Positions 51,044 through 53,245 of a stretch of 64,000 bases of DNA are shown here, piece by piece. Every line of letters begins with the position of its first letter. Position 1 is the stretch's first letter. This DNA is from Thermobaculum terrenum ATCC BAA-798. GTDB taxonomy: Bacteria; Chloroflexota; Chloroflexia; Thermobaculales; Thermobaculaceae. The notes under the pieces were generated by a model that was not told the origin of the DNA, ran no database searches, and saw nothing but the letters and a program-made list of their open reading frames with translations. Location: contig NC_013525.1 of NCBI RefSeq assembly GCF_000025005.1, positions 1,328,501 to 1,392,500 on the forward strand, read 5' to 3'. The position numbers and the translations under genes are program-made.

Positions 51044-51766
51044 ATGAGTATAGTAAGACTAAATACCGTAGCTTTCATCTGCTTGACCTTGCTCTGTATG
51101 GCTTGTGGCGTCAGCAAAACAGGATACAACGCCACACAGGAAACCAGTTGGAAAACGGCCCAGATCTCCCCGACAAACACGCCTGTCCCTGCTATAACCA
51201 CCGCAATTACACCAACGATACCAGTGGAGGCTACCCCTTCCGCTCAGCAGCTGGCAGTAGCTACAGCAGTCGATTATCTTAGTCGGAGACTTAACACAGA
51301 TCCAAGACTTATTAGAGTAATACAAGTTATTCCCAAGGAGTGGCCAGATACATCCTTAGGTTGTGCCGAAAAAGATAAGTCATATAATCAAGTCATGACT
51401 CCTGGCTATATAATCTTACTCAAATACGACAACCAAAGATTTGAAGTTCATACCGATAAGAACGGGAACGCAGTAATGTGCAGTAAAGATGAGAGCAAAA
51501 ACCCCAACGTGGGTGGTTCACCTATTGAAGAAAGAGCTATCATTGCTGCCAAGAGAGAGCTGGCTAGCAAGAAGGGTCTGCAGTTAGGTGAGATCGAATT
51601 AGTAAGTATTACATCTCGGAACTGGAGCGATAGCTCCCTCGGATGCCCAGAACCCGGAATGATGTATATGCAGGTAATAACGCCAGGATACGTAGTCAAG
51701 TTGAAGGCTAGGGACAATATATACGAGGTACATACCGACAGGAATGGAAGAGCTGTGTTGTGCTAG
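51044..51766 (+). CDS. Lipoprotein with two homologous Cys-containing modules
   Basis: A 240-residue exported protein. The N-terminal membrane segment ends in the lipobox LCMAC. A Pro/Thr linker (about 40-70) is followed by two modules (about 72-148 and 160-240). Each contains W.D.SLGC, a tyrosine, Q(V)M/ITPGY and EVHTD..G.AV.C, with matched cysteines. The repeat suggests internal duplication. I do not know the family name or function. The stop codon overlaps the yraN stop: both share CTAG. Confidence 0.75.
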   Translation: MSIVRLNTVAFICLTLLCMACGVSKTGYNATQETSWKTAQISPTNTPVPAITTAITPTIPVEATPSAQQLAVATAVDYLSRRLNTDPRLIRVIQVIPKEWPDTSLGCAEKDKSYNQVMTPGYIILLKYDNQRFEVHTDKNGNAVMCSKDESKNPNVGGSPIEERAIIAAKRELASKKGLQLGEIELVSITSRNWSDSSLGCPEPGMMYMQVITPGYVVKLKARDNIYEVHTDRNGRAVLC

Positions 51767-52140
51767 TCGTAGTCGCCGGGCATAATACAATTCTGTATAT
51801 GATTTGAGTCTATTACTCGCCCGCTACGAGAGATCGTAACAGTCACTGCATCAAACCTCACCGGCGGATCCTTCTCCCCGTCATAACATTCAAAAATCCA
51901 TATCTTAGCTAGGGTAAGTAACTGCCTGGCTTTATGCATATCTATAGATTCCTCAGGAGTACCCAAACTTAGGCTGGAACGGGTCTTGACCTCGACAAAT
52001 ACGATTTCATCTTTGTCCTGGAAGATAATATCTATCTCGCCTTGTCGGCATCGCCAATTTCGCGCAATAAGTTTATATCCCTTTGATAACAAGAAATTAC
52101 AGGCATAATCCTCCCCAATACGCCCAAGAGATTTACTCAT
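51763..52140 (-). CDS. yraN: YraN/UPF0102 nuclease-fold protein
   Basis: A 125-residue protein with SLGRIGEDYACNFLLSKGYK and the restriction-endonuclease-like signature QGEIDIIFQDKDEIVFVEVKTRSS (split here: GEIDII and FVEVKTRS). The D-ExK arrangement is intact. Biological role is unclear, possibly Holliday junction or DNA processing. The ATG at 52140 is used; a GTG at 52149 lies three codons upstream. It overlaps rnhB by 8 bases. Confidence 0.9.
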   Translation of the reverse strand: MSKSLGRIGEDYACNFLLSKGYKLIARNWRCRQGEIDIIFQDKDEIVFVEVKTRSSLSLGTPEESIDMHKARQLLTLAKIWIFECYDGEKDPPVRFDAVTVTISRSGRVIDSNHIQNCIMPGDYD

Positions 52141-52792
52141 GTTGTGCACCTAGCACAGTGCTTATGGGAGCGAATGAGCGCCTATGTTGAGGGGTAACAC
52201 CATAGATAGCTATCTCAGCCTGATGCTCGCGTGTGCCATAACCCTTATGCTTATGAAAGCTGAAACCTGGGACGTATTCTGTAAGATCTGCCATGTATCG
52301 ATCTCTCAAAACCTTAGCTACCACAGAAGCAGCAGCTATAGATAAACAGAGAGCATCACCATCAACTATCGCTACCTGATTAATAGAACAAGCCCTAATC
52401 TTGAACGCATCAATCAAAAGTACATCTGGTAAATCGGCATCTCGTAAGGCGCGTAGCCAAGCCAGCTCAGTAGCCCTAGATATACCCAAAGTATCGATCT
52501 CATCAGGAGTACTTGCGCCAATGCCGATATATAATGCCGATGCTTTTATGGCTTCGTAAGCTAACTCCCTTCTGTTAGGTGATAGCACTTTAGAGTCCCT
52601 AACGACCTCAGCAAGGGACTCTAAAGTGCTGAGGTCAGGAGGAAGTACCACTACAGCCCCAAATACTGGCCCAGCCCAGGCACCTCGACCGGCCTCATCT
52701 AGACCAGCCACGTAAGCATAACCCTGGCGCCACAGAGTAGGCTCGAATGGGTGAAATCCCTTTTCCTCTATAGGGGCTATTGAAGCGCACAT
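52133..52792 (-). CDS. rnhB: Ribonuclease HII
   Basis: A 219-residue RNase HII that removes RNA, including single ribonucleotides, from RNA-DNA hybrids. GLDEAGRGAWAGPVFGAVVVL holds the first two acids (Asp, Glu), SKVLSPNRREL follows, LLIDAFKI holds the third and SIAAASVVAKVLRDRYM the fourth region. The segment DLSTLESLAEVV, just before the conserved RDSKVLS, overlaps the inverted repeats described separately. rplS-rnhB-yraN is a common gene order; it follows rplS by 10 bases. Confidence 0.94.
   Translation of the reverse strand: MCASIAPIEEKGFHPFEPTLWRQGYAYVAGLDEAGRGAWAGPVFGAVVVLPPDLSTLESLAEVVRDSKVLSPNRRELAYEAIKASALYIGIGASTPDEIDTLGISRATELAWLRALRDADLPDVLLIDAFKIRACSINQVAIVDGDALCLSIAAASVVAKVLRDRYMADLTEYVPGFSFHKHKGYGTREHQAEIAIYGVTPQHRRSFAPISTVLGAQHE
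52584..52636. repeat. Two overlapping, mutually exclusive inverted repeats inside rnhB
   Basis: Repeat one: exact 17-base arms at 52584-52600 and 52614-52630 with a 13-base loop. Repeat two: exact 10-base arms at 52604-52613 and 52627-52636. The right arms share 4 bases, so both stems cannot form at once. On the coding strand the first arm encodes STLESL, and its reverse complement encodes the conserved RDSKVL. The left half looks like an inverted copy of the right. Terminator and operator are unlikely mid-gene; see findings. Confidence 0.9.
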
Positions 52793-52802
52793 AGCACTTA
52801 CT

Positions 52803-53159
52803 CTACTGAGTGCGCTTCTCCTTTAATCTAGCAGCCTTACCACGAAGATTTCTTAGATAATAGATCTTAGCGCGACGCACCTTAGCGCGCCTTACAACCT
52901 CAATTTTGTCGATGCGCGGCGAGTGCAACAGAAAGTTGCGCTCGACCCCAATTCCATGGGAAGCGATCCTTCTTACGGTAAAGTTTTCAGCTATACCACT
53001 ACCTCTGCGTCGAAGCACTACGCCTTCGAACACCTGAATTCTCTCACGGTTACCTTCCACAACTCGAGCATGGACGCGCACAGTATCACCAGGACCGAAG
53101 TCCGGTATATCAGATCTTAGTTGCTGTTGAGCAACAGAAGCTAGAACCTCTTGGGACAT
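52803..53159 (-). CDS. rplS: 50S ribosomal protein L19
   Basis: A 118-residue ribosomal protein at the 30S-50S interface. [33 protein letters not shown] and the basic C-terminus [20 protein letters not shown] are diagnostic. The ATG at 53159 has GGAG about 10 bases upstream; a GTG at 53168 would be only one base away from it. The usual trmD partner is absent upstream. Confidence 0.97.
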
Positions 53160-53245
53160 CGAAATCACACTCCTAGTATTAAGAATGTTTTAGCCAACTT
53201 TTGTGTGAAGATAAGAGTTTTTACACGAAAAGAACGCCAACAGGC

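Follow-up and report, generated by a model that had tools for sequence, protein, structure and literature searches.

Two overlapping perfect inverted repeats in the rnhB gene of Thermobaculum terrenum: a probable scar of replication template switching

Mutation by template switching has been studied mostly in yeast, in humans and in laboratory reporters. The closest described process is quasipalindrome correction (the Ripley model), and the homogenisation of short repeat arms by template switching has been documented in protein-coding genes of yeast (PMC8604942). The inverted repeats of Thermobaculum terrenum rnhB resemble the cases described there in several respects: they are short, lie close together within coding sequence, are in frame and perfected, and coincide with clustered changes that leave the length unaltered relative to relatives. 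They differ from the cases in PMC8604942 in that we infer the earlier state, and in that two repeats overlap. Transcription attenuators with alternative stems offer a second comparison, since rnhB likewise carries two mutually exclusive stems with common bases. However, the rnhB element has no terminator stem with a U-tract, lies inside a translated open reading frame (ORF), and is not conserved. A third comparison is with the excess of short inverted repeats across whole genomes, which we also find in the coding sequences of four members of this class; the rnhB hairpin differs from this general excess as a long extreme (17 bp). For E. coli ORFs, a 2008 study, as related in PMC6060812, found fewer short inverted repeats than expected.

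The window, which is the whole 64,000-nt stretch of DNA that was analysed, contains the rnhB locus of chromosome 1 of T. terrenum, a hot-soil bacterium. The rnhB product carries both the DEAGRG and the DSKxLS motifs and has the features of an RNase_HII domain protein, and its closest solved structure is T. maritima RNase HII (2etj). Read on the forward strand, the longer repeat consists of AGCACTTTAGAGTCCCT (52584-52600) and AGGGACTCTAAAGTGCT (52614-52630), pairing at 17/17 positions across a spacer of 13 nt, and the shorter one of GACCTCAGCA (52604-52613) and TGCTGAGGTC (52627-52636), pairing at 10/10 positions across a spacer that is also 13 nt. The initial annotation had placed a 17-base and an overlapping 10-base perfect repeat here, and both its coordinates and its letters are exact; translation confirms the arm peptides that it gave, STLESL and RDSKVL. 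On the coding strand the order is GACCTC-AGCACTTTAGAGTCCCT-TGCTGAGGTC-GTT-AGGGACTCTAAAGTGCT, translated as DLSTLESLAEVVRDSKVL. The arms at 52614-52630 and 52627-52636 overlap by four bases, and the arm at 52604-52613 is nested within the spacer of the longer repeat, so that the two stems exclude one another, as had also been proposed. The codons in the hairpin include the rare TTA (7% of Leu codons in this host), and the exact double-hairpin structure occurs only once in the T. terrenum genome.

Table 1. Features of the rnhB region, in window coordinates, and of a palindromic repeat family located elsewhere in the genome (C1 and C2 coordinates).
Feature	Position	Strand	Description
rplS	52803..53168	-	ribosomal protein L19, upstream of rnhB; Pfam Ribosomal_L19 E=1.8e-48
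rnhB	52133..52792	-	ribonuclease HII, 219 aa, intact ORF; Pfam RNase_HII PF01351 E=5.8e-29
yraN	51763..52149	-	UPF0102, downstream, overlaps the end of rnhB; Pfam UPF0102 E=1.3e-28
Inverted repeat 1, coding-strand 5' arm	52614..52630	-	AGCACTTTAGAGTCCCT; encodes S-T-L-E-S-L, variable loop
Inverted repeat 1, coding-strand 3' arm	52584..52600	-	AGGGACTCTAAAGTGCT; encodes R-D-S-K-V-L, conserved DSKxL motif
Inverted repeat 2, coding-strand 5' arm	52627..52636	-	GACCTCAGCA; encodes D-L-S; overlaps the 5' arm of repeat 1 by AGCA
Inverted repeat 2, coding-strand 3' arm	52604..52613	-	TGCTGAGGTC; encodes A-E-V; within the spacer of repeat 1
23-nt run	52614..52636	-	GACCTCAGCACTTTAGAGTCCCT; complementary throughout to TGCTGAGGTC then AGGGACTCTAAAGTGCT, joined at the common TGCT
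Palindromic repeat family, clustered	C1 578958-583131 and 1918601-1926481; C2 13029, 1054183, 1064549		T. terrenum genome (G000)

Background frequencies were taken from 60 stretches of 20 kb together with the 64-kb window, a sample of 1.1 Mb of predicted coding sequence (CDS) in 1,025 ORFs, in which perfect stems with loops of 3-30 were compared with a coding null of synonymous codon shuffles. The sample holds 28 stems of at least 12 bp, where 3.05 are expected from the shuffles, and 20 rounds of shuffling the 1.1 Mb gave 0.05 stems of at least 15 bp and zero of at least 16. The 17-bp stem of rnhB is the longest perfect hairpin in the sampled CDS; stems of 18-19 bp in stop-to-stop frames (L086 and L078) lie outside start-to-stop ORFs and were excluded from the coding count. 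Some short background ORFs may be spurious (e.g. L076:649-1041), and the ratios were therefore calculated again for ORFs of at least 150 aa. The result was unchanged, with observed to shuffled ratios for stems of at least 12 bp of 8.4 in T. terrenum and 15, 18 and 10 in three relatives of the class. Random DNA is the wrong null for coding DNA. Hairpins of at least 12 bp within genes exceed expectation 8- to 18-fold in this genome and its relatives.

The initial annotation took the loop-side arm for a de novo insertion in a variable loop, copied in reverse complement from the RDSKVL segment, and suggested an alignment of rnhB genes as a check. The family comprises seven genomes, with rnhB matches in five others (G001, G002, G003, G005 and G006); the nearest homologue has 52% protein identity, and a scan of contigs from the genomes gave 25 further rnhB loci, none of them closer. 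In favour of an insertion, the length of this loop does vary in the wider family, falling short by 7 residues in T. maritima and by 4 in one other family of the class (L008, L009 and L011). Against it, the DEAGRG-to-DSK spacing (36) is identical and ungapped in every homologue from the family and in at least 12 other members of the class, and the T. terrenum loop length is the commonest in the class. The loop peptides of the same-family relatives (SLEDLLGCVDDSK, SLEYLLGCVDDSK, HLAELAGCVRDSK and ALRELLGCVHDSK) are similar to that of T. terrenum (TLESLAEVVRDSK), whose LE and next L align with SLEDL or SLEYL. The identical spacing and the shared LE and L indicate that the STLESL segment is the usual loop of the homologues, turned palindromic in place. 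With no residues on the T. terrenum branch beyond those of close homologues, we reject the insertion, to which we would grant only a very small chance, while template switching, the process invoked for it, stands as the best explanation. None of about 50 rnhB homologues has the hairpin, or any perfect stem of more than 7 bp in the corresponding segment, showing that it is lineage-specific; complementarity in the same register among same-family relatives is 2-8 of 17 positions, in a comparison where the nearest rnhB is just 52% identical. An artefact of sequencing or assembly, such as a chimeric inverted read, was also considered, as inverted repeats can come from fold-back artefacts. The T. 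terrenum YNP1 genome, however, is finished as two chromosomes (2,026,947 and 1,074,634) from Sanger and 454 data with Illumina polishing, at an error rate of less than 1 in 100,000 (PMC3035366), which makes assembly error unlikely. The rnhB ORF is moreover intact with the loop length of its family, and an artefact is scarcely credible.

The initial annotation also raised an attenuator-like effect on rnhB and yraN; more broadly, a functional RNA switch would have the exclusive mRNA stems attenuate these two genes or pace their expression. The mutual exclusion fits such a switch, as do the strength of the 17-bp RNA stem (-30.4 kcal/mol at 37 C) and a fold z-score of -5.1. At 67 C, the growth optimum of T. 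terrenum (PMC3035366), the stem is predicted at -15.2 kcal/mol, and repeat 2 alone at -7.5 kcal/mol (-15.5 at 37 C). Neither stem, on the other hand, is followed by a U-tract, the downstream coding-strand letters being ATCACCTAACAG. The element lies more than 150 nt inside the translated rnhB ORF, some 50 homologues do without either hairpin, and many comparable intragenic hairpins occur in unrelated genes of the same genome. An attenuator is rejected on the lack of a U-tract and of conservation at orthologous loci; a regulatory role of the stems, which also lack a regulatory context, is possible but unsupported, and improbable. Somewhat less improbable, though still unlikely, is that protein selection and the choice of codons produced the repeats by coincidence, with no templated event. 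The amino acids do help pairing, L-E-S and D-S-K being intrinsically writable as complementary DNA, and LE is found in some same-family relatives; resampling the codons of rnhB gave a stem of at least 15 bp in 4 of 6000 cases, the peptide making such a stem easier than in random DNA. Against coincidence, the exact probabilities given the RNase HII peptide and host codon usage are 4.4e-5 for the 17-mer, 1.4e-4 for the 10-mer and 2.2e-8 for both, so that the palindrome is a feature at the DNA level and does not simply follow from the amino acids; the excess of such stems across the genome also indicates a non-random source. The earlier chance estimate (below 0.0001) was thus right in pointing away from chance, but its random-DNA null overstated the surprise, given the excess of coding hairpins in this and related genomes. 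Similar peptides over unrelated DNA in relatives, named at the outset as a sign of selection on the protein, are partly what we find, although the pairing at synonymous sites still needs a cause at the DNA level.

We therefore consider it likely that the rnhB hairpins are a mutational scar, left when an imperfect inverted repeat was perfected in place by replication template switching, i.e. quasipalindrome correction. We infer the replication mechanism, the seed, the copying direction and the number of events alike, and presume a quasipalindrome in an ancestral rnhB, for which stepwise substitution or selection for the hairpin are the alternatives. An imperfect inverted repeat would already have linked the variable loop (L-E-x-L) to the codons of the conserved R-D-S-K, with a seed of about 8 bp provided by the complementarity of L-E-S and D-S-K codons (TTNGARTC versus GAYTCNAAR). 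Snap-back copying by DNA polymerase could then have extended the seed to 17 bp in frame. The overlapping 10-bp repeat may derive from a second copying step, or from the same nascent strand jumping at the common TGCT. In the latter case the nascent strand would copy TGCTGAGGTC, slip at TGCT and continue on AGGGACTCTAAAGTGCT, leaving the 23-nt GACCTCAGCACTTTAGAGTCCCT. The loop would tolerate the new residues, so that the change could persist with no function needed.

The 23-nt run at 52614-52636 is probably the copied product, judging from the sequence. The loop side is favoured because the opposite copying direction predicts a single unbroken complement, which the sequence does not show, or else calls for an extra, unexplained break. 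This polarity agrees with the view of the initial annotation that the loop-side arm is the copy, and a copy of two downstream segments joined at TGCT would account for the whole run. Two separate copying events are possible. A single serial template switch, which jumped at the 4-nt TGCT microhomology and rewrote 23 nt (8 codons) with frame, length and function preserved, is a tentative suggestion that we think rather unlikely; if true, it would be a natural bacterial case of a multi-residue protein change by fold-back copying in a housekeeping gene. Inversion of the spacer by the same process was considered and rejected: the inverted spacer would read T-T-S-A, which is less like the A-G-C-V of relatives than is the present A-E-V-V, and the present orientation therefore looks ancestral.

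Two further housekeeping genes of T. terrenum carry perfect hairpins that none of the six same-family homologue loci compared for each gene possesses, the peptide alignments being ungapped: a 14-bp hairpin in dnaE (L110:7119-7155) and a 13-bp hairpin in fumC (L103:7980-8015). The fumC hairpin peptide, VEQGLAICTALAP, is identical at four of the six homologue loci, so the hairpin differs from those four at synonymous sites only. The dnaE and fumC pattern is that expected of in-place homogenisation of the arms. Most likely, the rnhB hairpin is a passive scar, at the far end of a mutational pattern that is common. It illustrates a known process well but offers little novelty, and is a clear, quantifiable instance of template-switch mutation in bacterial coding sequence. 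Long perfect intragenic hairpins are about 10 times over-represented in several genomes of the class, and lineage-specific in the cases checked. A strong intragenic hairpin thus need not be regulatory, nor clustered residue changes adaptive.

Some minor observations were made along the way. The rnhB gene of G005 was matched as two overlapping pieces in different frames (L056 and L057), which points to a frameshift or to an error of assembly. An Rfam SSU rRNA search of the T. terrenum genome gave no match, against two rRNA operons described for it (PMC3035366), probably because of masking or a limitation of the search tool. A 9-bp perfect inverted repeat, GAAGCGCAC / GTGCGCTTC, with a spacer of 19 nt (window 52782-52818), spans the end of rplS and the start codon of rnhB; it could affect translational coupling, though chance alone should yield a 9-bp match in 64,000 nt. 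A strong hairpin, AAAACCAACAACAGAAGTTCCTATGTTGTTGGTTTT, occurs in two successive copies about 57 bp apart (L076:827-922). The palindromic repeat family of Table 1, CCCGATTTCCCG - 13 nt - CGGGAAATCGGG, has 15 exact copies, three of them at 331-bp spacing.
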